Origin: Eremomyces bilateralis CBS 781.70 | Lineage: Eukaryota > Ascomycota > Dothideomycetes > Eremomycetales > Eremomycetaceae | Length of the DNA: 64,000 bases | Direction of reading: 5' to 3' | Assembly (NCBI RefSeq): GCF_010015585.1 | Contig: NW_022985081.1 | Span: 171,995 to 235,994 of the forward strand | Shown here: positions 31,913 through 64,000 of the stretch, in pieces | Numbering within the stretch: position 1 is the first letter of the stretch | Layout of the letters: each line of letters opens with the position of its first letter | The notes under the pieces: generated by a model | The model's database searches: none | What the model saw: only the letters and a program-made list of their open reading frames with translations | What the model was told of the DNA's origin: nothing | Program-made: the position numbers and the translations under genes

Positions 31913-32157
31913 ATGGATATTTACGATCGAATGATGACGCTATGGATTGACAACGGCTACTTCCGAGAAATCGGGATGGTGTATCTCGAATACCAGCAGC
32001 ATATTAAACTAAGGAGACACTGTAGTTTGGCAGTGCGGGGGAATGCAAGCTGTCGGATTGTGTTGTGCAAGTGTTGAAGTGAGGCGGATGCAGGCGTGGA
32101 AAAGGATGGTTCTCGACCGCAGCACTAATTACAACTAGAATCTGAGGACCTGTGAAA

Positions 32158-32205
32158 TTGCCGCCGAAAAGAGCGGTTTCTGACGCTGTTTTTGGCGGCA
32201 TTTCC
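32158..32205 (+). repeat. 48-bp palindromic repeat, copy 1 (left end)
   Basis: It begins TTGCCGCC and its two arms (TGCCGCCGAAAAGAGCG and CGCTGTTTTTGGCGGCA) form an imperfect hairpin. It aligns without gaps to 41596-41643 and to the reverse complement of 62794-62841. It lies about 390 bp upstream of the DUF3435 start. Confidence 0.75.
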
Positions 32206-32591
32206 ACACGACCTGGTCACGAAAATCAACTCTTCTCCTCCCCAAACACCCCGTAATGCCAAGCGCATGTGACTCTGTCCATTATCAGTTTCTTGAGTTT
32301 CATGAATTTAGAAATCGGGATCCCGTTTCTGCACTCAACTCATCCCAACTTTCCAATATGCTCTGCCACCCTCTAGCCGCTACAGTCGGCAGCATCCAAA
32401 AATGATCGCATACAAAAGCCTACCATGCGCTGCCATGCCCTTCATCCTCTCATCCCATCCCTTCCTACCTGCTTCCACCTTCCCTTCTCCGGTATCCCTA
32501 CGGATTCGCTCTCTCGTATGCCGCCATACTCCCGGCTGGTCTTACCTTTCTTTCGCCTCTCTTTTCACTTTCTCTCTACCCGTGCTTCGCC

Positions 32592-35014
32592 ATGGGAAAG
32601 AGGGCGCTTCCTGCCGCCGACGCAGAGGAGCACCAGCACTGGACTCGGCCTATCCTCTGCGATGAGACCCGAGCGAGGCTCGAGCACTTTCGAAGCTTCG
32701 GACACCTTCCTCCAAACTTCAAGCCTAAAACACTTCAGGGTATCGCCGTAGTGGAGAGATATTGGCGCAGGTCGGTCACCTTTTTCGACATTGCTGGGCA
32801 GATAATGCTAACTGTCTCGATTGGGCCGGTAGGTACTGCGACCACCTAGGAGTAAACTATGTGGAACATCTCACTACAGAGGACCCCCCAGTTTATATGA
32901 GCTTCTTTGATTGGATGTACGAGTCTTCTAAGAAGAAGAAGTTACAATCATACGACGAGTATTGGAGGCGATTGAACCAGTACTTTACTCTCTTCACCCG
33001 CCATCCAATGAGTAACCACGTTCATCAACAAATACGACGGGTATGTTTGTGTACCTTCTATTCATCAAACCTCCCCTGCTGATCGAGTACCATTAGTTCC
33101 TTGAACATGTATTCCCGGCCGAACGCGAGATTTCAAGGCGTGCCAAGAGCAAGCATACTCTGACAATTGAGGAATATGGACTTTTCCAGAGGTATCTGTG
33201 GAAATATTCCTTCTATTTCCGCTGCGGCAACATGCTCGTTCAGCAATCCACAATTATGCTGTGGTCTTCAATCACGGGAACTCGACCTGGCGTGCTTCTG
33301 CCGGACAACTGTAGTCCTGACGCTTCATCTCGGAACGATGAAGACCAGCAAATCACTATTGCACCGAAACCGAAGAGACGGAAGCCGAACCAAACTTTCG
33401 TTAGCGATCTGCCGGAGTATGTCTCCATTGATCCCTCCCCAAAAACCGTTTGTTGGGAGGATATCGAACTCTTCTACCTCAGAAATCCAGAAGGCGGTAG
33501 AGACGTCCCGTGCGCAATTATTACCTTCCGGAATTTGAAGGGCAGACCAGAAGGCTCCGACGGGTATAATTCAACCTTTTCCTGGAAGTGTTTTTGCAGC
33601 AAAAAGGGTTGCTAATATATTTTTGGAACAGAACACGATTCTTCATGCATTGCGACTACCTGCTGACATATTGCCCGATCTTGCACATCGTGGCGATGGC
33701 GTTCCGCGACGGGGCCTTCGAAAACGAACGACTAACACCAGAACTTTTCTGGCGACTTCGAGTCCCGAAACGTCTACCGAGCCTGCCTCTAAGATAGAAG
33801 AAAGACAAACTGAAACTTCCAGTTCTCCGTCGCATGAAGCAAGCTCCTTACGGCTATGAAGTAGACCAGTTCCTGCCGATGAAGTACGACTCCAGTAATA
33901 GCGCACTGAAGCATATCGGAGAAGGGCTAGGGTACGAGGACCTACCAACTCATTATAACTTTCGACGCTGGGCTGCAAACGCTGTTAATCGTAAGCAATT
34001 TCGGAGAACGGTCCCTATTCTGCTTATCCTACCTTCCTTTTTGCCCGAGCCTCCATCCCTTGAACAATCGTAGAACTCGGCACTGATATCTACGCAGGTA
34101 ATTACACCGAGGCGGAGCGCATGAGGGTCCTCGGTCAATCTGGGAATCGCGTTTTTGAGAAACACTATCAAAGCGACTTCATCGGTGGTCTCCAACATGT
34201 TGTCTTGGTACGGCCGTCACAGACGGCTCTATGCAATGAAGCGCGGAAGTGTAGGAACAGAGATCCTCTAGCGCCAAAAGCACTCAGCGGCGAGCAGCTC
34301 AAAGTCGTCCGTGGGGATTCTCGGATTCTCCAACTAAGACAAGAGAGAATCGAACTAAAGAACGAGATGCGATTATTAGCGGGGACCGTAGAGGCTGCTA
34401 GAGATCTGTATCCGGAGCTTCACCAGAAACACGACCGGGTCTGCAAGAGGATGCATAGCGAAAGGAAGAGACTCCTTCGGGAAGCCAAGGAGAAGATGAG
34501 GGAGGACTACTACGATAGCATACCAATAATCGAAGTCGACAAGCAGATCGACCAACTCCTAGATAACCCAGGCGTAGACTCTTCGGATGGTGAGAACGAC
34601 GATGATGACTCGGACCCCCCGCCTCCCAAATACGTGTTTCAGGAGCGTGCACGTCTTGTGGACGCCTTCTACGGGCCGGACGCTGACACGCTTGATGGCG
34701 AACAGGACATCGGCCGACGGATCCAGGTCACAAAGGACATGATCGCACTTTGCGGGCTTTGGGAGCCGACCCGCCGAGGGAAGAGGTTCGACTGGAACAA
34801 GGATAACGAAGACATGGTTGATAACGTCATGAAGACAAAGCAGGAGCAGGACTCCAGTCCATGTCTCGACGAAACGAAATGTCCCACTGACGTTTGTATC
34901 ATATGCCCAAAATTGCATAGACGCAGGTTCCAGCGCATGGATTCGTTAAGACGTCACCTAATAAATCAACACCTGAGTCATCTGCCTGAAGGTGTTCCTC
35001 TCTCCTGCGCATAG
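32592..35014 (+). pseudogene. DUF3435 tyrosine recombinase (Starship captain-like) with C-terminal C2H2 finger; one in-frame stop
   Basis: Five exons are proposed: 32592-32770, 32833-33040, 33097-33563, 33632-33990 and 34098-35014, giving 710 codons. Visible motifs are the first catalytic Arg in SITGTRPGVL (R192), the second box in THYNFRRWAANAVN (H392, R396) and the candidate nucleophile Y428 in RVFEKHYQSD. A helical C-terminus with KRLLREAKEKMREDYYDSIP follows, and then a C2H2 finger (CIICPKLHRRRF...HLINQH). This layout matches DUF3435 proteins with a terminal zinc finger. Codon 340 (33795-33797) is TAG where the family usually has Trp (PLR-W-KKDKL); this removes the H-R-Y half. DUF3435 includes Starship captains and related recombinases; which clade this belongs to needs a tree. 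Confidence 0.78.
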
Positions 35015-35885
35015 GATACATGCGTAAGCAGATCTGCCTTCATCGAAATTAGAGCCTTCCTAAACCATATTGCCACGGTCCACGATTACGACGTTAAGAT
35101 TGGATCCCATTTCTTTGAGCGTTTCTGTCGCACGCAGCAAATAGGCGGGAATAGAAGACCTTCGACCGAGGATTCGAGTGCAGAGTCCTTAGAAGGTTTA
35201 TCGATCGACGGAATAGCCCCAAGCACGACAGTGACGGCGATGACGGATTCTGAATCAACACCGTCGTCGCCGCCGTATATAGATATTCTTGAAAGGATTG
35301 ACCCAATCATCCTGAAGGAGGGAAATGCGGAGTCGAAAGGCTAAGAAGTACGTTATGCCCCAGCATCCTGTCCATTCAGTCGAAATCTCAGCCGTCGGCC
35401 GCGATCCTGGCATTCGATAAATCCGAAATACGTGCCTTCAGCTTCAGGAAGAGGTGATGTAAAATTCGGAACGATCGAGAATAGAGCCCGGAATGGAGCT
35501 TGATGAAATGTAGTAGCTTAGATGAGGTGGATGGGGATGTACACTACAGGGAACTTATCGGGCTGCATCGCTTTCTTTGTCTCATCTACTCCTTATGGTT
35601 TTCTCTCCTTCATCCCCTTTCCCAGCACAATTTATCTAGATTTCGAAATTTTGAAAGGAATCGTCTCAGTCGTTAGCGCGTGCCATACGAGTCTATTCCT
35701 TTAGCACCCCCTCTGATCTTCGCAAGCGCTTTCGACGGAAACACTTGTCCAATATCAGGGACGGCAAGAGGATCGACTGCGGGGTTTGCAAGATGTCACT
35801 CAACTGCAAGACGCACTTGCAAAACCACGCGAAGAAAATACATGGGACAGTATCGTGAACTTCAATACTAAGTTATCGACGCTTG

Positions 35886-35941
35886 GCCCGAACGGGCTCC
35901 AAGCAAAGAAGCCCGTTCTGTTTCTATGCGCTTTCAGAGCC
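35886..35941 (+). repeat. Module A, copy 1
   Basis: The 56-bp sequence begins GCCCGAACGGGC (itself a palindrome) and ends CTTTCAGAGCC. It aligns well to 37342-37397, with a partial match at 40403-40429. Confidence 0.65.
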
Positions 35942-36002
35942 TTCCACGTTTACTTGTCACAGTATCCTTCCCGTACCATTCCGCACTTGTAACATTCTGC
36001 AG

Positions 36003-36024
36003 CTCGATTGATTGATTGATTGAT
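36003..36024 (+). repeat. Short (GATT)n microsatellite
   Basis: About four to five GATT units in a row follow a CAGCTC sequence. It lies inside the repeat-rich zone downstream of the DUF3435 gene. Confidence 0.6.
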
Positions 36025-36594
36025 TCATAGGCTGACCAAGCCGTTCCTTGCACGAACTGCTTCCGCTTCGGTACGATAACCCCTCTACTAATAGTCTTAC
36101 TTGCTGTTCTGTGCCTACGTACTTGTCAGGCCTTTCCTGGCCTTCCTCTGCTTCTGTTTACTAGTTATCGCTCGTCTACGCTGTGTATTTGAGTACTGTG
36201 GCTGGAACTGCCCGGAATTGCTCTAAGAGCCCAGTCCTAAGGATCATATTGGCTGCTTGTACTGCCATTGACGAGCTACAGAGAATGCGCTTGATGTCTC
36301 CTCTTCCCCGTAACATTTCGCAGCTCGTAGCATGTCAGGCTGGGAGGATGCTAGTCTCGTGATACACGTGCATCCCTCTATATAAACGGTCGCAGCCATC
36401 ACAGAGTTCTTTCGTCCTCAAGGATCAGTCTGAGCCTTGATCTTAAGCCAGAAACAGCATAGATTTCATCAATCAAGCATCGCTAGTTACTCTCTTGCTA
36501 CTCGCTTACTCGTATCACGTTATTCACCCACTCTGTGTTGCGACAAAACAAACTTTACATATACCTGGAAGTGAGCGTATATCTCCACAGTCAT

Positions 36595-36895
36595 CACTCT
36601 CCCGTAACGCTCCAAAGCTCGTATCACTCCACGCCCATCTCTCCCGTAGCGCTCCAAAGCTCGTAATATTCCAGAGTTCATCTTTCCCGTGCCATTCCGC
36701 AGCTCGTAGCATTCCAAAGCTTCTGTCTCCCGTAATACTTCATAGCCCGTAGCGTTTCAAAGCTCGTATCATTCCAGGCTCATCTCTCCCGTAGCGCTCC
36801 AAAACTCGTAATATTCCAGAGTTCATATTTCCCGTGCCATTCCGCAGCTCGTAACATTCCAAAGCTTATTATTCCTGTATCGTTCCGCAGCCTTC
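36595..36895 (+). repeat. Minisatellite of interleaved CCGTA / CTCGTA / TTCCA units
   Basis: About 300 bp are built from repeats of roughly 20 bp alternating 'CCCGTA-GCGCTCCAAAG' and 'CTCGTA-ATATTCCAGAG' types, and a higher-order unit of about 150 bp occurs twice (36640-36720 and 36785-36870). Isolated related units lie at about 35969-36015 and 36306-36338. Confidence 0.7.
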
Positions 36896-37054
36896 TAATC
36901 CCAGAAATTCTATCCCAGGAACACTATCCCAGAGCGTGCCCAGCCTCTTTGAAGAAAAGAAAAACACTGGTACTCAAATTGCGCATATGTTTACCCAAAA
37001 CAATCGCTACAACAGACAACAAAAACAAACACACGATCCCCAAAATCCCCAGGG

Positions 37055-37305
37055 ACGGCATCCCCACAAGGGATGGCATTCCACTGGGACCGACTGATAT
37101 TGGGGGCCAGAAATGGAGTGGGGATCCGCATGGATGGCGTTCCCACAAGGGATCCATAAGGACTCCCGAAAATAGATGCACTGATAAAGGGTGAGGTCAG
37201 AAACTCGAAATCCGCAGGGGTGGTATTCCCACAAGGGATGGCATTCCACTGGGACACCGCCTGATATCGGATAAGGCCAGAAATGGACTCGAAATCCGCA
37301 CAGTA
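37055..37305 (+). repeat. Degenerate tandem repeat with CCCACAAGGGAT core
   Basis: Three units of roughly 75-90 bp carry CCCACAAGGGAT near 37063, 37142 and 37228. Two of them continue with GGCATTCCACTGGGAC and later with GGCCAGAAATGGA. No coding role is seen. Confidence 0.65.
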
Positions 37306-37738: not shown

Positions 37739-39126
37739 TCACATCATAGAACATAGTCCAAAGCTAATATGATTGGCTGGCTTCAACGCGAGTGACTTCA
37801 CCCTCTGCGTCTCGGGGCTGTCCTCACCCTCGCAGATAACCCTTGCTTCGTACGCTCTCTCCGCAAACACGCTTGCCCGAGCCTGATCTCCATGCGCGAT
37901 GCCGACTTGAAAGGCGTCGTAATAGAGCCTGGCGATGAGCGCCCCAGCATACCCGTCATATTCCTCTTGAAAGACTTGAAGCAGCGAGTGGCAGTCACTC
38001 AGACTCTCCTTCGGCCTAATCTGCATGCGGAATGGATCGCCGATGGCATTGTCGAGGTCTTGAATCAGTAAACGACGGCTGTCACTGGCTTGGAGCTCGG
38101 AAGGACGAGAGCATTCACGGCAATTGCAATCGAAACCGAAGGCTTCTTTCAGGAAGGCACGTCGTACAGTTGAAGTACCTCCGTAGTCATACGAGATTGT
38201 GACCTCCTCTCCGGTTTTGATTGGCCGGATCGCGTAGATGGTTTCGTGCTCCGCGTTGCTATCCCAGTTGTTGTGAGAGTTTGGAATACAGTTGTGATTG
38301 ATGAGGCAAATCGTAGGGTAGACTCCACCCACCACTGAGCCTGCGCCACAGGGTAGAGCATTGGTCTTAAAAGTGTTGCTAAACGGATGCTTTCCCGGGC
38401 AGTTGTTGTAAAGGGACAAAAATTGTCGTTGCGACGCTTTGGGCAATGCCCTTAGCCTGGCCGCGAGGATCAACTCCAACTCATTGGGCGGCATGGATTA
38501 AGCCGTAAGAACTGGCTTCTCACAAAGTATCCGAGTGCCGTTGGATATATTGAAACGGGCAATGAGACATTTGCCTTTTCTGGGAATGTCCTTAATTTCG
38601 AAAAGTGGGATACCAAGCTCATTGATGGGATTAGTACCGGTGAGGAGAGATGCGATGCTGGTATTGATCTCAGGCTCGTCTCGCTGTGAGTAAAGGGGTT
38701 AGATGTTGTCAAAGAGCAGGAACGAGACTCTACGAAGGCATGACTGACTTGCTCATAGGATCTGATTAACTCTGACTTCATTCCCGTCGTAATTGCCATA
38801 CTGGTCGTCACCTTCGTCCCAGTACTGGACACGGGAGCCGAAGTGAACCTTTGCAATTCTGGTAACAGTGTTGATATAGCTTGCTACTCTTGTAGCCGCT
38901 GCGATGATCCCCGAAACTTTCGAACTGAAATGCAGGAATTTGTGGCCCTTAAAAGGAAGTATAGGGTGTTCCCCAGCTTTGAATAGGATGTAATTCGGTT
39001 TTATCTCGACCTGGCTATCGTCTTTATAATGGTTCTTGATGAAGCCGACAAACCGGTTCCATTTGTGTCTATCAACGACTCCTTCAGATAGACAAGGGGA
39101 CCATATCGAAGCCAGCGTCAACTCCT
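37739..39126 (-). pseudogene. SET-domain protein (SMYD/SET5-like) with an in-frame stop
   Basis: The main exon is 38683-37739. It carries the SET signatures NHNCIPNS and GEEVTISYDYGG and the post-SET cluster CNCRECSRP, so the family is a probable lysine methyltransferase of the fungal SMYD/SET5 type. The N-terminal SET part (GIPLFEIKDIPRKGKCLIAR ... ILCEKPVLTA) is separated from the rest (MPPNELELILAARL) by TAA at 38500-38498; relatives usually read straight through here. An upstream exon at about 39126-38777 (YWDEGDDQYGNYDGNE) can be joined in frame over a 93-bp intron with a good CTAAC branch site. No ATG was found for it, so the 5' end is open. A fungus could in principle start at the ATG at 38494, but that would lose half of the SET fold. 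Confidence 0.6.
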
Positions 39127-39843: not shown

Positions 39844-40402
39844 TGTCCTAGCTATGAACATGTATTTCCAATTAAAAATCCTGAAACATGACACGACGAA
39901 ATGCGCTCCACCGCACGCAACCCGTCACACGCAGCTCGGGTTCGGACGTTTCTTAGGGCACATGCTTAACAACCATACGCATTACTTCGCAGCCGAAGAT
40001 GTTGGCACGGCTTACTCTATAATCTTCTTTGCGTGTTTTTCTTACCACACGCTATTTGCTGGCAGGAATTTGGCCACATGCATACTCTCACACGCTTCCA
40101 GCCCTACATCCCCTTGCTCTGCACGACCGTTACCGTATACTTTCCGCGTTTGCAGTTTTGTTGTTGTAGGCTCCCCTAACTGGCACGCAACTCACCGCAC
40201 ACTCTTGAGCTTACGCTCAGCAGAGGGCCCTGCATGAACCGAGGGCTATTATACACTCCGCATTTTATGTATGCAGCCCAAACAACCTCCTTTAAATAGC
40301 TACGTGACCTGGTATTTCCCGAATGAGCCTCAAGCCAGGGTGTTGATCGAGCTCCGCGCTAAATATATCAACAGTCCTCTCGTGGTGGTTACTACTCGTA
40401 AC

Positions 40403-40429
40403 CTGTTCTGTTTCCATGCGCTTTTAGAG
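40403..40429 (+). repeat. Module A, partial copy 3
   Basis: CTGTTCTGTTTCCATGCGC and TTTTAGAG match the right half of module A. Module B copy 2 follows about 230 bp downstream. Confidence 0.5.
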
Positions 40430-40656
40430 TGTCAGCCCTCAGTAGGGCGCAGGCCCTGTTTCTTGTAGTCGTTTCGTAGCGGTTCCTTCCTTCAACAACA
40501 GTCGAAAACAGGAAGACCGTATATGACCAGTTAACTAACCGTTCAAAAACCGTTAGAAGACTGTTCAAGAAAAATCAGGCCGTTGAAGCAAGTACTTGGC
40601 TACTTAACGGTAAAATAAACCATATCTTTCGCCCTGCTGCTGTCTTTTCACAAACT

Positions 40657-40696
40657 AAAAGTTCGGGAAAGACAGGGGTGATTTATTTCTAGGGTC
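40657..40696 (+). repeat. Module B, copy 2
   Basis: It aligns to 37433-37471 through GACAGGGGTGATTTATTTCT and ends directly at the MULE-like element. Confidence 0.6.
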
Positions 40697-40706
40697 TTAT
40701 AAGCTT

Positions 40707-41198
40707 ATCTCAGTTGGGACTCAGACGGGATCTGGAAGATGGTTGTGGCGGTGCAGGCATCTTCAGATGCCGTCTGAGGACCATCTGCAGCATTTTGGTG
40801 GGCGCGTAGGTAAAAAGAGCGGATTTGGCCCCTACGGCGCACTAAACTCGACCAAAATTAGCGACAGGGGTCGCTCCAAAAGTCCAACTACACCAGCCCT
40901 TCGAAACAGCCGGTGCTAATCCTTTGTTATAGAATTATTTTGATATATTTCTTAATATACTATAAAAGAGCAGATTCTTTTACCTGTTACCTAGCCCCGC
41001 CTAAACTTTAAGCTAATTTCGAGTACTGAAAGTTGAAATGGTTGACTGAAACGACTGGGAACTCTGAAAACTTCAACTACACCATCACACAAACCTTACA
41101 AAAGGACCTCAGACGGTATCTGAAGATACCTTGGCTGCACCGCCACAGTGTAGTCACGTGCAGCATCTGAAGATACCGTCTGAGCTTGCTGAGATAAG
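40707..41198. mobile_element. Non-autonomous MULE-like DNA transposon (MITE), about 490 bp
   Basis: The ends are ATCTCAG... and ...CTGAGATAAG, inside long degenerate terminal inverted repeats of about 90 bp that contain CTCAGACGG, GTGGCGGTGCAG and ATCTTCAGAT..CCGTCTGAG blocks in mirror order. The 9-bp direct repeat TATAAGCTT flanks it (40698-40706 and 41199-41207). Its last three bases could belong to the terminal repeat, so the true duplication is 6-9 bp. Nine-base duplications with long terminal repeats are typical of Mutator-like elements. The inside has no coding frame. Subterminal copies of CAGACGGTATCTGAAGATACC-like palindromes could be transposase sites. Confidence 0.7.
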
Positions 41199-41595
41199 TA
41201 TAAGCTTGAAGTCCACGTCTGGTACCTGTTGTTGCTGGAAAGGGGTTGTATCTGCGGCGAGCACCAAGTGCTTCATATTAAACAATGGCGAAGATGTCGT
41301 CGTACATGTGTCTTGGGGTAACGGACTGGACTCCTGGAGCAATTCCGGGTAGTCCCATCAGTGTTCAAATACACATAGCGAAGACGAGTGATTAGCGGTA
41401 TACGGAAGCAGAGGAGAGATAGGAAAGACCTGACAATTACATAGATATAGAATAGCTGTTCGAGCTAACAGTAAGGTGCAATAGCTCAGAGTAGAAGAGG
41501 AAGCAGTTCGTGCAAGGAACGGCTGGACTTCTGAAAGCGAAGGGCGGGGGCACAATATTTATAATTGTACGGAGTAACGTTGTGTGCTACCGAAC

Positions 41596-41643
41596 TTGCC
41601 TCCAAAAACGGCGGTGTCTGATGCCGTTTTCAGAGGGCTTTCC
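41596..41643 (+). repeat. 48-bp palindromic repeat, copy 2
   Basis: It begins TTGCCTCCAAAAACGGCGG and is in the same orientation as copy 1. It shares an extended outer flank (ACGGAGTAAC, then TTGTGTGCTAC) with copy 3. A DUF3435-like N-terminus starts about 435 bp downstream, nearly the same spacing as at copy 1. Confidence 0.7.
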
Positions 41644-42078
41644 GCTTAGGCGAAACGCTCTCGTTTCGTACCAGTGGTGCCCAAATCCCCCTGCCACAGT
41701 GCCAAGGCTTTGCACTCTCACAGACTTGCTTAAGCACTTGTAGAGGAAGGGGGCCGATTTTGAAATTCCAACTCTCAGTTTTCAGTTTTTCGAACTTCAC
41801 ATCTTCTATGTCTCCAGGTCAATTTCAGAAGCATGGCGGTGTCAAACGTCATGGCTCTGTTGCGGAGCTTCTCTTTGTTTTCGCACATAATAACCAATGT
41901 CCAGGCCCCGTCGCTCGATGGATCGCTCTGTCATTCCCGTTTCTCTGATAACTTTTTTTCTTGAGCCCTCCATGTTTTGCAGTTTCAGACCGATCTAATA
42001 TTATCTTGCTGCCTTCGGTAAATTGCCCTTTGCCCTCCTACGGGACCGCTCCATGCATCAATCGCCGAGATCATCGTA

Positions 42079-42270
42079 ATGGAAGGGGGAACAAGCCGCG
42101 CCCCTGCGGCAAAAAGGATACCACCACGAGACTCGGCGTATTATGAATCGCTCTATGCCGACGACCTAACCCCAACATTGCGCCTTATCACAGATGCGAC
42201 TGAGAGGGGAATTGGCTTTGTGTGGAAGAAGTGGACAGAATATAGGTTCAGGGCTAAAATTTACCAAGTT
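42079..42270 (+). pseudogene. Possible N-terminal remnant of a second DUF3435 recombinase gene
   Basis: From the ATG at 42079 the frame reads a basic start and then YADDLTPTLRLITDATERGIG followed by FVWKKWTEYRF. DUF3435 proteins with this N-terminus ('DDLTP ... ATERGIGY.WKKW..Y') are known to me from fungal annotations; the call is from memory and the match is short. The similarity fades after about residue 65 and no downstream recombinase core is found before the convergent gene ends at 42630. A truncated captain copy is the simplest reading; a chance match is possible. Confidence 0.38.
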
Positions 42271-42629
42271 TCTTCACTAACGGCCTCTGATTTCCGACAC
42301 ACACCCTCAAAAAAACGCCAAGCGTTCTCTCACATTTTGCAACTGTCAGATCTTCACTTCGCCAAATCTAGCTCAAAAAAGCCCGTTCCATTTCTACTTC
42401 ACCAGCAACTCGTCAAGTCGGCTCTTTGAGTAGCTATAAGAACCGCATCAGAAGTTAGTTATGTACCCTAGAAACGGCCCTTGACGCTAGGCGAGATTTA
42501 CTAAACGTCGAAAGTGTATCTCTACAAGAATTTTGTGCGGAAACGAAAGTGGAAGAGTGATTTAAGCATCAGTATTCCGTACTGTAAACCAAGCGCATGC
42601 GTGAAATGCTTCTTTGGATCTCTTCAACC

Positions 42630-50967: not shown

Positions 50968-51691
50968 TGATCCTGTCCGTCGCCCTGCGAGGGTCAAGAC
51001 GAGCTGGTGGCCGAGCTCCTCGGTCTCTCCCATCTAGAGGTCCTTAATACCATGGCAAAGAAGTTCTGTAGGCTCCCATTCTTGGATTCCAGCATGATAC
51101 ACAAGCTGGCCCACGTGACGGCCCACAACATCAATATATTCCGTCGCAGAAGCACATCCATGACGCGCAAACCTGCCATGACCCGACAGGTGGTAAATAT
51201 CATTGCCTCGCTCCTAGAGCTAGCCGGCAACGATGATAAACCCAAGAAGACCGAGCGACTCCACCCTTCTCGCCGAACACAACATAAAAGACAAGGGCGT
51301 TCAAGTCGTACGATCCGTAGAGAGAAGCATTATGGAAGGAGCGAGGTGGTCATGAAGGATTGAGGAGAAGGAAAGAACTAGGATTGCGACTACAGTGCGG
51401 ATGAGACTGGTATGGCACAACGGCCGGACTCGGATTGATGAAAGGCTGAGAAGAAGAGGTATCAAGACTAGTCAGAGGACCAATTCAGACGAATTCGAGC
51501 AGCTCGATTCAATGCCGTTGTCATCAACTGCAACACAGGATTGAACGACCCTGTTCAAATTGATGTTGACCATATACATTACAACTTGAATGCCGGCAGA
51601 ACTAGCCAAAAGATGAATTATGATATACTACGATTGCTGAGCAACATCCTTCACAAACAAACCACGGACACGGCCTCAAATCTTCTTAAAA
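50968..51691. other. Spacer with a possible decayed coding stretch
   Basis: The + strand from about 50985 to 51250 reads as an open, protein-like frame (ELVAELLGLSHLEVLNTMA...), with no start or join that I can support. Nothing recognisable lies beyond 51370. Confidence 0.4.
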
Positions 51692-54600
51692 TTATGCTGC
51701 TTCCGTCACCTCATACTTATCCGATCTGAACCTCAGCCTGCCTTCACGCTCCAACCGGTTCGGGTCGAGATACAACTTCAGCCCCATATCCGACTGGCCA
51801 AGATTAAACACTCTCGCGAGGATGTATACTCTGTCCGAAGCCGATTCTATGGGTAGTGTGGTGTCTATCATGAGTTCGTACTGGTTGCGGCCAACGTAGA
51901 GTGGCGTGGTGAGGCGACATGTGGAGGCTTTCACCTCAATATGGTACTTTGGTTGCTTCCCTGCCCAGAGGTCAGACCGGAGATAGCCATTGGCGACCAG
52001 TAAGCCGGTGAATTTGCTCTTGTGGTCTTCATAAACGATGTCTGAAGTCTCAGGTAATGACCAATTCGTTAGCGCTCTATAATCACGATGTGACTAAACG
52101 AGATTTCGAATCCTAGACTGCCAACTCTCAAGGCCGAAGTTCGGTAATTGGAGACTCTTCAACCATTCGAACATCTACTCAAATTAGCAACACTCATAGG
52201 CCGAACGGCGGACTTACAAAGAGTTCTCCAGCTGCTCCAACCTTGAAGTCTCTCTGGGTACCAGCCACCGCCACATCGACCTCGAACTTTGAAAAGCAAG
52301 GCTCAAGAGATACAGCGGAAGTTTCACCAACACGCGGAAATGGCGGCCCGCGCCGAGCGCTGTCGACCGCCACCTCGAGAAGCATAGTGTAGCGAGTAGG
52401 ATCTTCTTGAGTATCTGGTGTACTGAAGACTGACGTCGGGGGAGTTAAGTTCGAACCTGGCGAAAGCCCAGAGCTCCTTTGAGAAATGAAGTGGCTGGAG
52501 CTTGTACTGGACGGGCGGAAGGCAAGTTGCGCCTGCTCCAGGAAAGTAGGTCGAGGCGGTATGACCGGCCCAATCTCTCCAGTATCATCTGGTAACTGGA
52601 ACGTTGGATCGCCGTCGTCTTCTTCCGGTTCAGACGAATCCAACTCTACATCTTCAGGCCGATTGACACAAGCCACGGAAATGACTCCAGCGTTTTCTAG
52701 AATTTCGTCAACGTCTGCAAGCCCGTGGGCTGAGAATATGCTGCCCAGTTCTCCAACATAACTGTTCGGGGCGCCGAAGTGATTGAGAATAGCTTGGGGC
52801 AGGTGAGTCAGAAGGCATCGATACCGAAGCCGGGGGTCCCTCGGGATGTATACTTTCAGGCCAGCTGAATTCTCAAGACCACCTCCTTCATTGCTTTCAA
52901 CATTGCTATCCTCGTTGTCTACGTCTTCCAGGTGGCAGTATGCCTTCCCAGAAACCATTGTGACTGGCCTGCCATCCTGGTAGGTAGTCAGTGTCTTTGA
53001 AAATTCTTCACTAATCAGGACAGTTATGTTCTGAAGCTTCTTGAAACATTCGGCTGGGTCATCGCGAGCCGTAGTGCATCTCGCATGAGCAGCGTACCTA
53101 GTTTAATCAGTATTGATCCAATGCTAGTAATAAACACTCACCGGCAAATCGCATATGCCTTTCTTCTTAACTTGGTGGTCATTGAGTGATCGATCGAGCT
53201 TCTGGATGCCGTCGTCTCAGCTGCGACTGTTCCGGAAAGGTATCGATTCCGGAGACCTAGCCCAATGAGAAAGGCCTCCATTTCGTGGACTTCCTCCTTG
53301 GAGAAATCCAACGTTTTGAGCTCTCCTCGGAAGAGAGTTTCGTATTCCTGTCGATCGACGATAGCGAAGTCCTCCTTGCCATTCATCCAAGCGAGTGTTC
53401 CATCGGGGAGGCGAACGGGGAAGCATTTGCTGTCGAAGACCATTGCTAGATCACCCGCAGTAGGACTGAACTGACAAATGTTCCTGATGAGTTGCTTTAT
53501 TGAATCGCTGCTTGGCGATTTGGATGCTTCCCGCTTTAGTGCTTGGATGTATAGAGGAAGCTTCGGCTCTTCAATCCCAAGGACCGTCAGGAAGAAAGGT
53601 TTCTGCGCGGAGTACTCCGTTGCAATAGAGAATTTCTCGGGCAGGCGCACAGTATCGTTGACCCAAACGCAAGTTGATGGACTATGCCACATCTGGTCCT
53701 GGAAGTTATAGATAAGCTTATCCGATTCGAAACGTGATCTAGCTGAATTAGCATAGGAATTAAGTGAGTAGAAGTGCGGTTAATTTACTTAATGGATTCC
53801 TTCCAAGCGTTGTCCCCTCGAATCTCCGAGTGGAGCTTATTATAGAGAAGTTTGAGGATTTGGTCTCTTCTTGCCACACGGTTTGGATTTTTCAAGTAGG
53901 AAATGTAACTCAAGTAATCGTCCACTCCCGGATCAGTCGGAACTGAAAGACCATCGACGAAGAATGTCTTAAGAGATTCGTATCCAGGTAGTCGAGCGAG
54001 GTTAGGATGATGCGTGTACCAAGTCGGAGTATTCCATCGGCAGAAACTCGGGTAGCACCATGTGTCTTCCCGAGTGAAGATATAATTCCTTTCGGAGGAA
54101 CACTCAAACAGCTCTCTAGTATTGGCCGGTAAGAAGAGGAAGCTGCATTGCATACCACCGAACATGGAGGGGCCTTCAATAGCACCGAAGATTGTTCTGT
54201 AACTGTTAGTTCTACTCCCAGACTGGGGCATTCATCAGGTACCTGAGAGTGGTTTTGTGACTTGGTGTCGAGCAGAAGCCTAGAAGTCTGGAGTATATCT
54301 CCGACATTACAATGTATCCCGGGTTTTTCTTTTCGCGAGCCTTCTTCAACAGTAGCAACCAGAAGCAAAAATCTTCTTCGTACTGCACTCCTAAGTGACG
54401 CAAGAAACTCCAGTCGGACACGCCGTCATCCTCCATTCCATCAAGCTCCTTGATGAATCCGAAACCGCTCTGAAGCTCCAGTCGATCAACGATAGCTTTC
54501 AATTTTGGGAGTGGAAGATAGGTTGAGCTCAATGGTGAGAGATCATCTGAATGGAGTATCGGAACTCGGGCGAGCTTCTGGAAATCTGCTTTCCATGGGA

Positions 54601-56948
54601 TGTCGAAGTCAACATGAGACCATTGCCGCTTGAGAACTCCGAGAACAATTGAATGAGCCTTTTGAGTTGCCAGGTATTTGAACTCTTCAGCAATCGCTGC
54701 GCCAGCTCTAATCCTGGGCTCTGGTATGGACTTGACCTGGATGAATTCTTCAAGCCACTCGATGCCAGACTTGTCATATCTTCGTTCGCAAGCTCCAAAC
54801 ACTTCATAGTAGCGTGGATGCAAAAATTGAATCTCTCCCTTTAGCTGCTTCGGAACTGGATGGCCGATGACATTGGCTGCGCTGCAAGGGTCTGTGCTGC
54901 TCGGGCTGTACCACCATCTGGTCGACAAATCAGGGACTTGTTTCAAAAGATCTTTGCTCACAACCATAAGAGAAATTCTCTGTCCCTGAGACGGTAGATC
55001 GGTATGGTTCCAGAATACAAACTTGAGATGGTCGAGAGCTGTGTCCATTGTCCAGTCATCCTTCCTGCAGGCCTGTTCTAGCAATGGAAATATTCGCTGG
55101 GGAGCACATTCCGACACTCCGAGTTCTCGAAACAGCTCTGTCCTTTCGTCGTTGATAAGCGCCCGTGAATCAACTAGACTCAGGGGAAGATCTCGCGGAA
55201 TATCGATCCCTCGGCATTTTGGGAAATAGATCGATGCATTAAATGATGGAACCCATCGCTCATCCTTGAGAAGTGGCACTAATGGCAGCTTCTTAATACC
55301 GATTGCAAGTTGTTCTGAAGTGGCCACTGCTCGAAGCAAGGACCTGGAGAGATATGTATGCCATCGTGATTCCGCTGGCGTCGTGCGCAGCCGAGAGTAG
55401 CCGTTGGGTTTCAAGTCACAACGCAAGAGCCCAATGAATTCTGCGGTGGACAACGTTTCGAGGCCGAGTTTTCGGAGGATCGGAATGTCAAGAGTGGCGT
55501 CGTACTTATCTGAGACGTAGCGACTGTGAAGGTGGGGTGTAGTACAGTCGCACTCGGACAGCAGAGGTCGGTTTTCAAAGTCTCTCAAAGAGGTCGGTAC
55601 AAGTCTCAATGATCTGGCGAGTGTGGTACCGCGGTCCCCCAATGGAATGAAACAACTGTGATCCATGAGCTGGGAGAACAGCCGACTTTGAAGGGTGCCC
55701 CAAAACTCATCGGGCACCCCATTCGTTGCCAGATAGCGGAGCCATGAATATTTCAAGGTTGGTTGATCCAAAAATCCAGAGGTAGTAGTCTCCAAGAAAA
55801 GATTGACAATTTCGTCCAGAATACGTCGGTTCCAAGGGCAATTGGAAACATCTTCACGGCTCGCCTGAGTTATGAAGTCAGATTGGATAAGAAACTAGTC
55901 AGGTCAGCGTCGGCAGTTTTTGTCAAGAGAGTCTAGAGGATACCTTGAAACCAACTTTCCGGAGAGGAAGAAAGGCGAATACATGCTGCTCCTCAACAGT
56001 TGGAACGTCGTCCTGATTGAGAGGAAAGGCCAAAAACACATCTGCTGTCGTGATACCTGTTCTTGCTTCTTCCTCGGGCATATTAGTGATTGATTTGCTC
56101 GCGATCCAGTAGTTGAGATTGACAGTGTCATGTTTGATGGTTCGAGCGATACAAGCTCTATTATTCTCGATCGACAATTCGTACACCTTGCTGACAATCT
56201 TCTCGTGTCTTTCGATGCGAATTGAAAGCTTTTTTAATTTCCGTAGAAATAGTAGAAGGGTGTCCGGAAGAGCCTCAAACTCGCGAAGCAGGGCGTCCTT
56301 ATCGACCCTATCATTCAGGTGAAGAATGATGCGGGTCCGAACACCCAACAACTCATCGGGAGGTTCCACGAGAGGTGTGACCATTCCAAGTCCAGAATCC
56401 GGTAATCCACGATTGTACTCGAATGCAAACGAATATGGTTCCGACTGAACGTGAACTTTGCAGGCAACTTTGAAGACAGATTTGAATCCAATACCTTTCT
56501 CGCCAACATAGCCTTCGATTCCCGACTTGGTGCTTTCTCCTACCCTGCAGATTGCCCGGGTATTGGCCTCGGAGAATCCATCCTCATTGGAGTCGATTAT
56601 AATACGCTTGGCTGAAACAGTGAATGAGAGATGAGGACGCTCCTTGTTTCCATTAGCGATGGAGTACTTATTGTCTTCCGCGTTCTGGATCAATTCGTAC
56701 ACGAAGCGGGTATCCTTCGAGTACAAATTACGGGACAGTCTGGGGAAGTCAGTCAAAAGCATTTAAAGAGAATAGAGTACCTACGCCTCTGTGCTTGCAC
56801 AAGCCAGCCGTCGAGCTCCGTCGACGCTTTTGATGATATGCGGGCGATTCACTCGAAGATATTCGCGATCCTCGGCTGAAAGCCAACCATTCTCGGTCGC
56901 CAGTTCCTGGATCAGAGCCTTCGCTTCTTCCCTGCTTGTGCTAGTCAT
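51692..56948 (-). pseudogene. Second GHKL-ATPase / DUF3883 gene, paralogue with an in-frame stop before the nuclease-like motif
   Basis: Seven exons are proposed: 56948-56785, 56739-55944, 55894-54243, 54196-53789, 53738-53142, 53097-52218 and 52174-51692 (introns 43-50 bp), 1660 codons in all. The ATPase motifs are intact: E70-LIQN-AED, DSNEDGF (104-110) and GEKGIGFKSVF (134-144). DUF3883 starts VGAAGELFMFEWL and would contain TSDIVYED and HIEVKAST. A TAG at 52096-52094 (after SRIRNLV, before SHRDYRAL) cuts the product to 1525 residues, removing the D...ExK residues. The rest of the frame to 51692 stays open and conserved with the sister gene, so the stop is either recent or tolerated because the ATPase part still works. 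Five of six introns match the sister gene in position. Confidence 0.8.
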
Positions 56949-57704: not shown

Positions 57705-57712
57705 GTGCTATG

Positions 57713-58004
57713 TAGGGTGGGTGTAAGAAATGAAATAAATAGGAGTCTGTAAATTACCGAATTAATGCAAGAAAGTAGTTTATTTCTTTCCATTATTTTC
57801 TTACCTAATCAGAAATCTCGTAGAAGCCCCTTGGCGGTTGGTTTTCCCGACCATAAATGTTCGTGCCTTAGGCATCAACATACGATGCGCTAAACAAATT
57901 GGGTTAGCGTTTTTTGCGAAATTTACATCGTATTCTTTGTTTCTTACACAAATTTGGGGATTTCTTCGCAACAAATGTTTATTTCATAAATTTTACCCAC
58001 CCTA
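57713..58004. mobile_element. hAT-like non-autonomous DNA transposon (MITE), 292 bp
   Basis: The ends read TAGGGTGGGTGTAAG and TTTTACCCACCCTA, forming terminal inverted repeats of about 27 bp (ten perfect bases at the tip, then ATGAAATAAA shared). The 8-bp target duplication GTGCTATG is exact at 57705-57712 and 58005-58012. Eight-base duplications and such tips are typical of hAT elements. The inside is A/T-rich with no coding frame. The perfect duplication suggests a fairly recent insertion. Confidence 0.88.
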
Positions 58005-59267: not shown

Positions 59268-59350
59268 TAGGTGAGCAGTGGATGAGAAGTAAGTGAGCAG
59301 TGGGTGAGCAGTGGGTGTGTAGTGGGTGAGGGCGGTGAGGCAGTGGGTGA
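59268..59350 (+). repeat. GTGAGCAGTGG minisatellite
   Basis: About six degenerate units of 11-13 bp with core GTGAGCAGTGGGT. A TACTCCGTA motif follows at about 59366. Confidence 0.6.
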
Positions 59351-59510
59351 GTATCTGAGTATTGAGTACTCCGTAATCTGAGTGCTACAGAATTACCATT
59401 TGTAGTCTAGCGCCATTATATTTAGGTATAGCGCTGTTTTCCATTTTTAATCTTCACGTCCTTCAAAACATAAATAGTAATTCTGAGAGAGTAGTATATC
59501 ATGTGACCAT

Positions 59511-59580
59511 GAGGGTGTAAATGGAGCGGCAGTGAGGGTGTGAACGGAGCACCAACGGGTGTGAAAGGAGCCTCACCCGT
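59511..59580 (+). repeat. Short tandem repeat with GAGGGTGTGAACGGAGC core
   Basis: There are three degenerate units of about 25 bp sharing GGGTGTRAAYGGAGC. Confidence 0.6.
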
Positions 59581-59788
59581 CCCTGGTAAGGCACCCCGGT
59601 CTTTGAGCACTACAGTCTGCAGCCATCAAGGGGAGAGATGCAACGAGGCAGACAGCTGTGCCGCATTGTATCAAGTTTAATAACCCCTCAAGCCTTCATT
59701 AAATGTGTTCCAAGTTCGTGTTTCTCTTAATCTCACCGACTCTTAACTCAGTTTTATTATCATCTGTACCTTATATCCTACTTCAACT

Positions 59789-62098
59789 ATGCCTCTCAAT
59801 CTGACTCTGGATGATGAATCTCTGCCTCTTACACGGAGTATTGCAAATGAGAACTTCCCGCAACAAGGCCAAATTGACTGGGTGTCATTATCGCGAGGCA
59901 CCATTAACTTCTCCTTTGGCGTCCTCTCCAGGCTATCTGCGGCGTCTGTGGATCCATATACCCTCTCGTTGGGTCATTTTATCGGGAGTAATTTCCAATT
60001 TTCGTGCACTGGACGGCAGAACATTGAACAAACGCTTAGAGGCCTCAAATCCTTTGGTGGTGTTGGCGATGTTCTCTGGTTCGGGTTCGGCGTCAAACAT
60101 CTTATTCGTGCCATATCGGTTACCGAACAGGGTGCAATGTTGGTTGCTCTCTGCGCAACGCTCGCAGAATGCTTTCCAGATGAGATAAGCGCGGAAGTAC
60201 TCAGCCACCTTGCGAAAGGCACCGCGGACTTGAAAGTTGTACCATCATTGAGCGAATGGCGCTCCTTAGTGCGCTGTTGCGCGGGAACTGTCGCCACAAC
60301 ACCGTTTCCGTTGCGGGCAGAGACACTCATGGGAGTTCATGTTGGGATCGCTACTGGATCATCCGTTGGAAACCCGGATCCACATGGCTTAGCAGAGACA
60401 TTGCTTGGTATAGGCAAGCTCTCGCGCGGTGTGTGGAAGTCGATCACGATTACCGGACCAAGGGAGGTAGGGTGGATTGCAGCAGTGGCTGAATGGCTGT
60501 TCGGACTCACAGTCACCATCCTCAACGAGGACGGCGACGTGAAATATTCGAGTAGTCGAATTGACCATGTCGCGAGCATCATTATTTTACCCGAAAATAC
60601 GTCTGAAACAGTGGGAAAAGCTCCCATGTTACACGTTGTGGATAAATCATTCGAACTCCGCACCGCTCTGGACCTTTTTAACCTTAATTCGAGTGTACCT
60701 TTAGGTGGCGATAATGTTACTCGCATCTGTGGTCGAGTCAAGTGGCACCAGTGTTTGCATGCGGCATTTGGTATCCACTTCGAAAAGCTGATGACGATGA
60801 AGACAACATTTTGCGAGATATTTGCAAGTGCCTCACGGGTTTTCAAGGCCATTGCGAATTGCAATAAAGACATACAAACAGGGGACTCCTCCAGAAATCG
60901 GCTCTATACTGATCGTTCCTTCGGCATTGGACTTATACAGCACTCGGCGAATTGGCTCCCTGAACTCTCGCCTGCGGCGTCCACCATTCAAAATTGTTAC
61001 GACAACACCCCAGATGCGGAAGCTAGAAGCAAGTACGAGGCGAGGCTTGCGCTGCTGGCAGTGTCTTGTAAATGCAGGTTATGCGACCCACCAAAGAGTC
61101 GTGTGCGCAAAGATGATGCTGACCTTCGGTGCCTCGTTGTGATCACCGAGACAATAATTGTGCTTTGCAGATTATTGTCGACGCTTGAACTTGTCGAATC
61201 GCCTTTTCCTCTCCTGCGAGGTATTCAGAAATTGTACGGCGTGCAAGCGACCAGACGCTGCAGATTTCGAGATCAAGAGACAGATATGGGCGCGGTAGTG
61301 CATATACTGGATGATCCGCGCGTAGAAGGCACTGCACCGCTACTTGCTGCGCTATCGCTCTTCGCTGGACGTTCAGCGCTCAACCTAGACAAGAACGTGA
61401 TATGGCCTTGTGCGGTGTCAGCTGGAGGAATCTGTGTTTATCTGAATACCCTTCATGAGCCTTCTGATGATAAGGAGGTTGTAAACCAGATCTGTGTGGT
61501 TCCAGGACAGATCGAGTGCAACGAGAAGCCATTCTACTGCGTTGAAGATTGGCCTTACTCGAATGAGAATCTCTCTCGCTGGTTGGACGGTCAGGCAGAG
61601 TGTCGAATGCGGGAACCCACAGGGGACGAGCGTTGGACCAAGATGACTAACAGCTCTTTGATGTGTAGTGTCAAGGTTGAAGTTAAGGAGACAGTTCGCT
61701 CTCTAGCCATAAGATACAACATCATGGATGATCGGAACCAGCCAACACACCTATCTTTCAGCCCGATGCTTTTGGCTCAAGGGGCTTCGCATTCGCGCGG
61801 TCTAGTCCATTGCCCAGAATCGCATCGGGTTCAACCCATGGTTGCTTCTGGAAGCCCATCTGAGGAGCTATTAAAACGTCTCGAAGAAACAGGGATCACA
61901 TTTCGTTTGTTGAAAGCTCCAGTGCTAGGGCGATGCGCGGCATTGACGAGTTTTGGTCACAATCTGATTCTTCAAGAGAATGAGTGTCTAGACTGTTGCA
62001 TCAAATCAGCTCTAAGCAGCGACAGCACTGAGATTATCGTCATTTCACAAACCGAAAGAGGAAGCGCATCTGACTCGGTGTTCAGCGAAAATAGATAG
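59789..62098 (+). CDS. Uncharacterised fungal protein of 769 residues near the right end of the candidate element
   Basis: A single intronless frame with a good ATG context. Visible blocks are SLSRGTINFSFGVLSRL near the start, GGVGDVLWFGFGVKHLIR (about residue 90), then GKLSRGVWKSITITGPREVGWIAAVAEWLFGL (in two parts, about 210-240), a Cys pair (SCKCRLCDPP, about 430) and HILDDPRVEGTAPLL. I recall similar proteins as a large uncharacterised, fungus-specific family that is often found in variable genome regions; no enzymatic motif is evident. There is no signal peptide or membrane helix. The lack of introns contrasts with its neighbours. The frame is undamaged. Confidence 0.8.
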   Translation: MPLNLTLDDESLPLTRSIANENFPQQGQIDWVSLSRGTINFSFGVLSRLSAASVDPYTLSLGHFIGSNFQFSCTGRQNIEQTLRGLKSFGGVGDVLWFGFGVKHLIRAISVTEQGAMLVALCATLAECFPDEISAEVLSHLAKGTADLKVVPSLSEWRSLVRCCAGTVATTPFPLRAETLMGVHVGIATGSSVGNPDPHGLAETLLGIGKLSRGVWKSITITGPREVGWIAAVAEWLFGLTVTILNEDGDVKYSSSRIDHVASIIILPENTSETVGKAPMLHVVDKSFELRTALDLFNLNSSVPLGGDNVTRICGRVKWHQCLHAAFGIHFEKLMTMKTTFCEIFASASRVFKAIANCNKDIQTGDSSRNRLYTDRSFGIGLIQHSANWLPELSPAASTIQNCYDNTPDAEARSKYEARLALLAVSCKCRLCDPPKSRVRKDDADLRCLVVITETIIVLCRLLSTLELVESPFPLLRGIQKLYGVQATRRCRFRDQETDMGAVVHILDDPRVEGTAPLLAALSLFAGRSALNLDKNVIWPCAVSAGGICVYLNTLHEPSDDKEVVNQICVVPGQIECNEKPFYCVEDWPYSNENLSRWLDGQAECRMREPTGDERWTKMTNSSLMCSVKVEVKETVRSLAIRYNIMDDRNQPTHLSFSPMLLAQGASHSRGLVHCPESHRVQPMVASGSPSEELLKRLEETGITFRLLKAPVLGRCAALTSFGHNLILQENECLDCCIKSALSSDSTEIIVISQTERGSASDSVFSENR

Positions 62099-62671
62099 TA
62101 GTTTACTACCACAGATATTGAATCAGACATTTCACAATCGAGAGTACTACGTTTGTCTTTTTGTTAATAATTATCATGGATGTAAGCCAGGTTTGTCAAT
62201 GACGAAAACTTGCAGAGCAATCTGAAAAGGCTATGTTGGAATGTGAGCCAATTATGTAGACTAGACCTATACTCGAAAGAAATCCTGATTTGGCTCTTCA
62301 AGATGTGGAAACAAACAGGGCAAGTTTCTGCGGTATATGATTCGGGATCGATCAAGCATGAACAGCAGGTGCTCTCTGTGCTCCTGTGTCCTCACTCCAA
62401 GCAAAGAAAAGAACAGGAACGGGCACGACGAAACGATCAATCGAGTGACGGCCCTTAACATTGGTAATTATATGCGAAGGCAGAGGGAGGCTCTACAGCG
62501 GAGCTATAGTATTTAACAGTGTCATTTTCCGAAATTAGCATAGAGATATAGCAGTTGCTGACACGGTTTGGATGCGCAAGGTCTGCGATTACCAAGTTCC
62601 ATTAATCTAAACTGAAGAGAGAGAAGGAAGAAACCTCCCAGCGTCTCTGCGCGCAAGATATAGAAGATACT

Positions 62672-62716
62672 TCCTTTGTTCCTATCTCCTTTGTGCCTAT
62701 CTCCTTTGTGCCATCC
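62672..62716 (+). repeat. Three tandem 15-bp units
   Basis: The unit is TCCTTTGTGCCTATC, with one or two changes in the outer units. It sits about 80 bp inside the right copy of the 48-bp palindrome. Confidence 0.8.
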
Positions 62717-62793
62717 ACTAGCCACATCCCTGTGGCGTCAGCCATACTCAAGGGCTCAGGCCACAGGCCTGGGACCATAACAGTTGCGAAAGT

Positions 62794-62841
62794 CGAAAAC
62801 CCTCCAAAAACGGCGTCAGAAACCTCCGTGTCTGGAGGCAA
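62794..62841 (-). repeat. 48-bp palindromic repeat, copy 3 (right end, inverted)
   Basis: On the minus strand it begins TTGCCTCCAGACACGGAGG and aligns without gaps to copies 1 and 2. It is inverted relative to copy 1, as a terminal repeat would be. The outer flank (plus strand GTAGCACACAAAGTTACTCC) is shared with copy 2. Confidence 0.75.
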
Positions 62842-64000
62842 TTTCTGTAGCACACAAAGTTACTCCGTAGGGAACGAAGGGTTCGCGCCCGATGGAGGAA
62901 ATCTCGCGCCGCCAACAGGAGTTCCGGTTCGCGAGATGCCCGGGGTTGTCGATAGGAGCGTGCATCTCCGATCCAAGATGGCATATGGGCGCCCGGTAAA
63001 GGATAAGGGGAATTTGAATTGTGAATTGCACGAGGACAGGGATAGTTGCCACTTAAGTATTCGGGGCCGCTGCGGTGGAAGACGCTCTGCACTCGCTATC
63101 CTATCGCCACGGCTCGACCGCTCTTCTACTTGCATGCGCAACCCCGGAATTTACCCCTGAGTTTGCCTCGCCGCTCTTGCCGCCAGTCCACGACTTGCAA
63201 GAGGATGTGCATTCTACACCCAAGGCATGGATATACCATTCTGTCCTGGTTAGCGTGCCATCAGTAATATTGTTTGGGGGGTGCGTCCAAAAATAGCGGA
63301 AGGTGAAGCGGTAACATGGATTGACATTGATGCGGTCTGCTTGATATCTTTCGTTTTCATCTCCCTTTCAGTCCACGACCAGTGACGGCCAGGTATAATA
63401 TGCGACGACGCTCTCATCCCTATGCACACGCCCAAGGTTAGAGGAGAAAATGGTCACTACAAAATTCCATCGTCGCTGGATCCGAGATCGTACACAAGCT
63501 GCTTGACTCAAAGATAAGGGGCTGCCTCTGTCTATAAGAGCGCATGGTTGCGAGAAGTGTAATAATTGGGTTGGAGGAAATCTCAATGGTCGTGCTGGGC
63601 CACTAACCTCGAGTAGCCAGGGGTATCGGTAGTCAGTGGACCGTTATCCCGCGGGTAGATCCAGCTGCTCACGTTTAGATGATCGTAGAAATTCTAGTCC
63701 ACGAGACCACATGCAATGGCAACCGAGCAATTAGATCCACGGGCTTTTAAGTTCGCATGGATGGGTTGGCGTGCAAGAGCTGGAACAGCCACACCGCAAA
63801 GCACACTCGTCAAGATGCCTCACCGTCATCGTCACCGTCGGTGTCACCGATTTCACCTGGTTCGGCCTCACCGGATGCTTTAAGCATTGTCAGTTGGGCT
63901 ACGACTCGAAACTCCTACGTACGAATAGCAAGCTGCAATCGAGCGAGCGTGGCACCTCCCATGCCAATGATCCAAGCCAGAGACAGATTGGGGCATTAAC

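Follow-up and report, generated by a model that had tools for sequence, protein, structure and literature searches.

What kind of mobile DNA borders the conserved genes on contig NW_022985081.1 of the ascomycete Eremomyces bilateralis CBS 781.70 (assembly GCF_010015585.1)? We analysed a stretch of 64,000 nucleotides (contig positions 171,995 to 235,994; hereafter the window, with positions counted from its first letter). Its left 32 kb are a dense gene block closed by an HD-domain gene, directly after which stands a DUF3435 tyrosine-recombinase gene, of the type called captain in the giant fungal elements known as Starships. A first-pass annotation had read the DNA from there to 62.86 kb as one degenerate Starship of 30.7 kb; the kind of element it named is probably right, and the unit it drew is wrong, a single element from A to C not being supported. 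We put at about 60% the probability that the interval is instead a nest of degraded DUF3435-recombinase (Starship-type) DNA beside the conserved block, in which two end sequences, A and B, are 5' ends, and two others, D and C, bound one 3.5-kb insertion. Three things suggest that the DNA derives from Starships: the recombinase itself, the end-like sequence that precedes it by about 460 bp, and outer motifs matching two published target sites.

The recombinase gene and the palindromic ends

The following features were located on the captain side of the presumed elements:

31,163-31,912, plus strand: HD-domain gene, last of the conserved block (PF01966, expectation value (E) 7.8e-7; model spliced by eye, start codon at 31,163 or 31,190)
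32,139-32,215, plus strand: end A, terminal sequence and palindrome (core 32,154-32,204), nhmmer 69 bits
32,592-35,341, plus strand: DUF3435 tyrosine-recombinase (captain-type) gene, five exons, 827 codons counting two in-frame TAGs
35,655-35,855, plus strand: possible remnant of another DUF3435 gene, namely its C-terminal zinc-finger tail (weak: 35,718-35,783 by tblastn at E 15, the remainder by eye)
41,567-41,654, plus strand: end B, terminal sequence and palindrome (core 41,592-41,642), nhmmer 88.7 bits
41,800-41,944, plus strand: leader of B, homologous to the leader of C at 62,415-62,557 (71% over 145 bp)
42,079-42,426, plus strand: probable decayed DUF3435 N-terminus behind B, with an ATG at 42,079 (tiled-segment comparison)
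62,784-62,870, minus strand: end C, terminal sequence and palindrome (core 62,795-62,845), taken to be the 5' end of D-C, nhmmer 90.2 bits

The inward-reading recombinase gene that had been reported at the edge of the conserved block, right after the HD-domain gene, is indeed there. Domain PF11917 (DUF3435) covers residues 160-630 of the spliced model, with stops written as X (E 5.3e-78), and the gene is the first one at the 5' edge of A, its ATG lying about 460 bp inside that end. Two in-frame TAG codons, at 33,795 and 35,012, break it. Read by eye, the C-terminus carries zinc-finger-like cysteines and histidines, and the motifs GTRPG, HYNFRR and KHYQ hold what we take to be the tetrad residues of tyrosine recombinases. 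The architecture fits that of a captain, since the Sanctuary captain (786 aa; PMC12506042), compared by description, likewise has a recombinase domain (residues 111-463) and a C-terminal DNA-binding domain (711-784); unlike that protein, the present one is interrupted by its two stops. Such an architecture alone is no proof of a captain, because the solo state is reported to be the more usual one for DUF3435 genes, with captains scattered among the solo genes in trees and not monophyletic (PMC12134995). Repeat-induced point mutation (RIP) was considered as the cause of decay and dropped: the composite index is -0.30 over the captain, and exceeds 0 in only 2 of 32 blocks of 2 kb (40,001-42,000 and 48,001-50,000).

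Searches for relatives elsewhere were negative. A pattern from one captain exon gave 10 matches in viral contigs and a pattern from another exon 24 in prokaryote genome contigs, none of them confirmed; two DNA patterns found nothing in viral contigs, and a 19-mer run against genome contigs gave four matches in bacterial metagenome-assembled genomes, about the chance level by our own estimate. The best match of a captain exon in a PDB sequence search (E 0.65) was not credible.

The palindrome copies, including the inverted copy C and a third, internal copy B, were likewise recovered by nhmmer, with E 1e-20 to 2e-27 for a model built on those same three copies; no fourth locus in the 64 kb lies above the inclusion threshold. 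Each palindrome consists of arms of about 21 nt around a near-constant asymmetric 8-nt centre, GT[T/G]TCTGA; A and C have GTTTCTGA there, B has GTGTCTGA. Their dyad scores are matched by 1 (A), 53 (C) and 165 (B) of 5,000 random segments, and their fold energies are reached by 0 (A), 10 (B) and 4 (C) of 300 shuffles. Arms around a short asymmetric centre are also the build of loxP, and this likeness of geometry suggests that the palindrome is a candidate recombinase-binding site. Covariation is not claimed as evidence: the three sequences hold two compensatory pairs, a number reached by 143 of 500 shuffles.

C is nearer to the internal copy B than to A, because its match to B is longer and of higher identity (85% over 75 bp, and 71% over the 145 bp of the adjoining leader, a leader score reached by none of 300 shuffles) than its match to A (78% over 54 bp). 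At A, 438 bp separate the start of the palindrome core from the DUF3435 ATG; behind B, the ATG at 42,079 follows the start of the core after 487 bp. When 442 tiled segments of 560 nt, the captain's own stretch being excluded, were compared with the captain N-terminus, the segment behind B scored best (56, against 49 for the next one); no Pfam match was found in this region. Judged from these comparisons, B is probably a second 5' captain end, of which the captain has been largely lost. A is plausibly the 5' end of another element than D-C, with its captain 460 bp inside.

A 3.5-kb unit bounded by direct repeats

What, then, does C belong to? The sequence that pairs best with it is D, which lies 3.5 kb away and completes the following unit:

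59,367-59,375, plus strand: left direct repeat TACTCCGTA of D-C (motif and pair scans)
59,376-59,398, plus strand: end D, inverted terminal sequence and presumed 3' end (window scan against C)
59,789-62,098, plus strand: orphan single-exon open reading frame (ORF) of 769 aa inside D-C (ORF list)
62,861-62,869, plus strand: right direct repeat TACTCCGTA of D-C (motif and pair scans), overlapping three bases of the TTAC at 62,860-62,863

The D-C unit (59,367-62,869; 3,503 bp) is thus bounded by direct repeats TACTCCGTA, inside which lie inverted ends of about 24 bp, ATCTGAGTGCTACAGAATTACC and ACTTTGTGTGCTACAGAAATTGCC. When all identical direct 9-mer pairs 0.8 to 40 kb apart in the window were scored for their inner ends, a test run after the pair had been noticed through its motif, D-C ranked first of 7,777 (score 12, against 7 for the runner-up). 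A scan of both strands for 24-mers sharing a 6-mer with C found 15 start positions that reach the score of D against C, all of them at C, B or D, and in a random sample that left these loci in, 3 of 30,000 window 24-mers did so. C carries the captain-side leader and palindrome.

Two traits of Starships are therefore found in D-C, direct repeats at both ends and terminal inverted repeats, and two are lacking, a captain of its own and giant size: the unit measures 3,503 bp, and the lower bound in the published sets is 15 kb (PMC12134995, PMC12153272). With E values up to 20 allowed, tblastn found no match to the captain from 59.4 to 62.9 kb. Two overlapping plus-strand segments at 61,601 and 61,881 (61.6-62.4 kb) reach a score of 47 with the captain N-terminus and rank third of the 442; since a segment at 12,321, which is unrelated, scores 49, we regard this as noise. 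The 769-residue orphan noted earlier is real; it has no match in Pfam or NCBIfam, and its fold as predicted by AlphaFold without alignment is unusable (mean predicted local distance difference test score 33.6).

Outer motifs and published target sites

Do the outer edges of the four ends resemble known insertion sites? For Tardis, the target is given as TACGGAGTAG, with a direct repeat of 9-11 bp and a consensus, CTACGGAGTA, conserved in other Eurotiomycetes; the targets given for Nebuchadnezzar, of the Hephaestus family, and for Hephaestus are TTACA(N5)AAT and TTAC(N7)A, all these motifs being termed predicted and awaiting experimental confirmation (PMC12153272). Two of the sites in the window are:

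32,129-32,141, plus strand: TTACA(N5)AAT at the outer edge of A, a target motif of Hephaestus type (Nebuchadnezzar) (aligned ends)
41,568-41,576, plus strand: TACGGAGTA at the outer edge of B (motif scan)

The 9-mer TACGGAGTA, the published Tardis direct-repeat or target motif, occurs three times in the window against 0.22 expected, a count reached by none of 100 shuffles; it lies at B, C and D, each time at the outer edge. Read inward, it has the same orientation at B and C and the opposite one at D, as a direct repeat requires, so that the three orientations fit 5', 5' and 3' ends, respectively. TTACA(N5)AAT is also found three times, against 1.54 expected (15 of 100 shuffles reach three), and one copy coincides with the outer edge of A. 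The evidence from TACGGAGTA is strong here, that from TTACA(N5)AAT no more than suggestive.

In these motifs, the locus recalls two known groups. As in the A. fumigatus Tardis h1, a 9-11 bp repeat of the type TACGGAGTAG or CTACGGAGTA is found (at B, C and D), together with inverted termini, which 18 of the 20 Starships of A. fumigatus are reported to have (PMC12153272). Unlike Tardis h1, which has a mean length of 81.7 kb and a captain, D-C is 3.5 kb long and captain-less; the likeness lies in the published motif and the inverted termini. As in the Hephaestus family, end A reads TTACAACTAGAAT and has a DUF3435 gene about 460 bp inside; unlike that family, the captain is broken, and no 3' end of the A element was identified within the window. 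The sole direct-repeat partner for the TTACAACTAGAAT of A is a copy with one mismatch, TTACAACTTGAAT, at 51,579-51,591 in direct orientation; the matches number two against 0.99 expected, and 25 of 100 shuffles reach two, which is not beyond chance.

The two borders of the 30.7-kb element had been marked by an inverted pair of the palindrome with a TTAC outside each copy. These two TTACs are not equivalent: that of A (32,129-32,132) stands at the outer edge, whereas that of C (62,860-62,863) lies about six columns further in, where it is the GTAA of TACGGAGTAAC read backwards, and the internal copy B has TACGGAGTAAC too. Across the window, the pattern TTAC(N7)A has 68 occurrences (37 on the plus strand, 31 on the minus strand).

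How could a unit such as D-C have arisen? Most likely, a captain encoded elsewhere recognised the shared ends, and the 3.5-kb unit was moved by it in trans, with TACGGAGTA as the target. What the sequence shows is the repeats, the way they point and their statistics; their role as recombinase ends and the movement in trans are our inference. By analogy with miniature inverted-repeat transposable elements (MITEs), which are moved by parent transposases, D-C could be a captain-less miniature derivative of a Starship, with the palindrome as putative captain-binding site; we regard this more specific proposal as possible, though short of probable. In the literature on non-autonomous Starships that was accessible, most subscription journals falling outside it, no captain-less mini-Starships are described.

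Weighing the alternatives

Several observations speak against a nest of Starship-type DNA. The TTACA(N5)AAT of A is by itself not rare. The consensus CTACGGAGTA is reported to be over-represented in A. fumigatus (Af293), where it is perhaps a transcription-factor site overlapping C6 zinc-cluster motifs (PMC12153272), and for this reason little follows from its mere presence. D, which a motif of this type helped us to notice, matches models built without it only weakly (E 0.17 and 0.72) and has no clear palindrome, its fold energy being reached by 60 of 300 shuffles; the missing palindrome is expected of a 3' end. The likeness of the leaders of A and B, and of A and C, is unconvincing (shuffles reach the score in 6 and 5 of 300, respectively; of 16 pairs with a control leader, one, that of D with the region upstream of the peroxidase, was reached by 2 of 300). 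The captain remnant behind B is weak when judged by tblastn alone (E 16), and the D-C unit is known from one locus in one genome.

An alternative is that the palindrome and its terminal sequence make up an ordinary short dispersed repeat, MITE- or promoter-like. The DUF3435 gene would then be a pseudogene that stands alone, and the direct repeat of D-C a common regulatory motif met twice, each time beside a repeat copy. We consider this unlikely, yet it deserves to be taken seriously: the motif may be a transcription-factor site over-represented in Af293 (PMC12153272), solo DUF3435 genes are reported to be commoner (PMC12134995), and the window does contain other small repeats. However, D-C outscores the 7,776 other pairs by far, no palindrome copy above threshold occurs in the left 32 kb, the cores lie 438 bp before a certain and 487 bp before a probable DUF3435 ATG, and the motif orientations at B, C and D fit 5', 5' and 3' ends.

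Next to D-C, there might also be a larger Starship with one or both of the ATPase genes described below as cargo, either anchored at A and ending after some 19.5 kb at TTACAACTTGAAT (51,579), or anchored at B and ending beyond the window. The site at 51,579, one base off the 13-mer of A and in direct orientation, speaks for the former, and B has no direct TACGGAGTA partner within the window, so that its 3' end may lie outside. Against this, the 13-mer count is within chance, no inverted end was seen by eye inside 51,579, and no 3' end of B was seen; we regard such an element as quite unlikely.

It is very unlikely that B (41,568) and C (62,869) bound one element of 21.3 kb, in which long inverted repeats would enclose both ATPase genes and the orphan. 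B and C are the most similar pair, sharing TACGGAGTAAC and two homologous stretches within 377 and 455 bp, and the probable captain remnant at B points inward, but the 9-bp motifs of this pair are inverted and not direct, both ends look like captain-side 5' ends, and no flanking duplication was seen by eye; the inverted 9-mers led us to disfavour it. Least probable of all is the single Starship of 30.7 kb that would run from A (32.13 kb) to C (62.86 kb) and be flanked by TTAC duplications: although its left-end captain reads inward, A is related to C in inverted orientation (78% over 54 bp) and a plus-strand TTAC lies near both ends, we reject it on the non-homologous positions of the two TTACs, that of C lying within the TACGGAGTAAC common to B, on outer motifs that differ (TTACA(N5)AAT at A, TACTCCGTA at C), and on the better pairing of C with D and with B.

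The GHKL-ATPase genes

Between B and D-C lie the two large ATPase genes, also reported earlier and real:

42,630-48,115, minus strand: GHKL-1, sacsin-like and TmtA-like ATPase with a NOV_C-like tail (open 7-exon model, 1,682 aa)
51,692-56,948, minus strand: GHKL-2, paralogue of GHKL-1 (7 exons, one in-frame stop near 52,094-52,096, at residue 1,528 of 1,661)

The two proteins are 28.8% identical over 1,753 aligned columns. Their ATPase parts match the PADLOC TmtA models (E 5.1e-45 for GHKL-1 and 2.7e-57 for GHKL-2), as well as the NCBIfam sacsin N-terminal domain and Pfam SACS; six further GHKL pieces gave three weak TmtA matches (best E 5.5e-9) and three without match. The tail of GHKL-1 matches PDC-S36 best among PADLOC models (E 4.4e-6), then TmtA (E 2.7e-4), and Pfam NOV_C at 8e-4, below cut-off; that of GHKL-2 matches NOV_C with E 0.056. 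In a plasmid collection, 15 records match parts of the GHKL-2 ATPase stretch with 28-35% identity, 5 of the 15 being annotated DUF3883.

The layout of TmtA in PADLOC, an ATPase and a C-terminal NOV_C-like domain in one large protein, is thus found here. The closest known systems are TmtA, of the anti-phage system named Tiamat, and plant NO VEIN proteins. The GHKL genes share with both an N-terminal sacsin/GHKL ATPase and a NOV_C-like tail; unlike TmtA, they have six introns per model, and the NOV_C match of their tail is below the Pfam cut-off. Judged by these matches, they are eukaryotic relatives of a bacterial anti-phage protein family. No fungal TmtA relatives are described in the titles and beginnings of abstracts found on Tiamat in eukaryotes, TmtA, NO VEIN (10 of 2,414 papers) and DUF3883 in fungi, most subscription journals falling outside this literature. 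The genes would be element cargo only if A or B had its 3' end to their right.

At 49,776-49,791 on the minus strand, a stretch that reads TTTCAGTAGCACTTAGTAAC on the plus strand is similar to the inverted terminal sequence of C and lacks the 9-bp motif; with an E of 1.6-3.9, the match may be due to chance. Together with end B, it would bracket GHKL-1.

Other features of the window

Families found in the window include Elongator Iki1, EMC7 and a peroxidase, read as a catalase-peroxidase; together with the richness of the genes in introns, they suggest a fungus of the Pezizomycotina. When the ORFs were read by eye, no return to conserved genes was seen to the right before the end of the window. 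Further features are:

36,039-36,237, plus strand: left arm of an inverted repeat pair of about 200 bp (74% over 207 columns against the right arm)
37,742-38,497, minus strand: SET-domain gene, main open stretch (PF00856, E 5.4e-10)
41,323-41,524, minus strand: right arm of the same pair (same 74% alignment)

The two arms are 5.1 kb apart, and the pair stops 44 bp short of end B; it is possible that they are a separate decayed element around the SET gene. Between 36,299 and 37,313, there are imperfect tandem and direct repeats (up to 93% identity over 122 bp), in which CCCGTA and AGCTCGTA recur, as read by eye. A MITE-like unit of about 290 bp lies at 57,713-58,004, with 27-bp inverted ends (81%) and, by eye, TA beside both ends.

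Implications

At this locus, two eukaryotic relatives of a bacterial anti-phage family sit beside decayed mobile elements. If D-C is indeed a captain-less miniature derivative moved in trans, giant fungal elements would spawn small single-gene cassettes, which are lost when a size filter of 15 kb is applied. The published survey of Starships in A. fumigatus starts from captain genes and leaves out elements below 15 kb (PMC12153272), and short captain-less units with Starship-like ends would go unseen there. If D-C is such a unit, it would also offer a minimal pair of ends for asking what a captain recognises, and the palindrome with its near-constant 8-nt centre would be a concrete candidate for that recognition.

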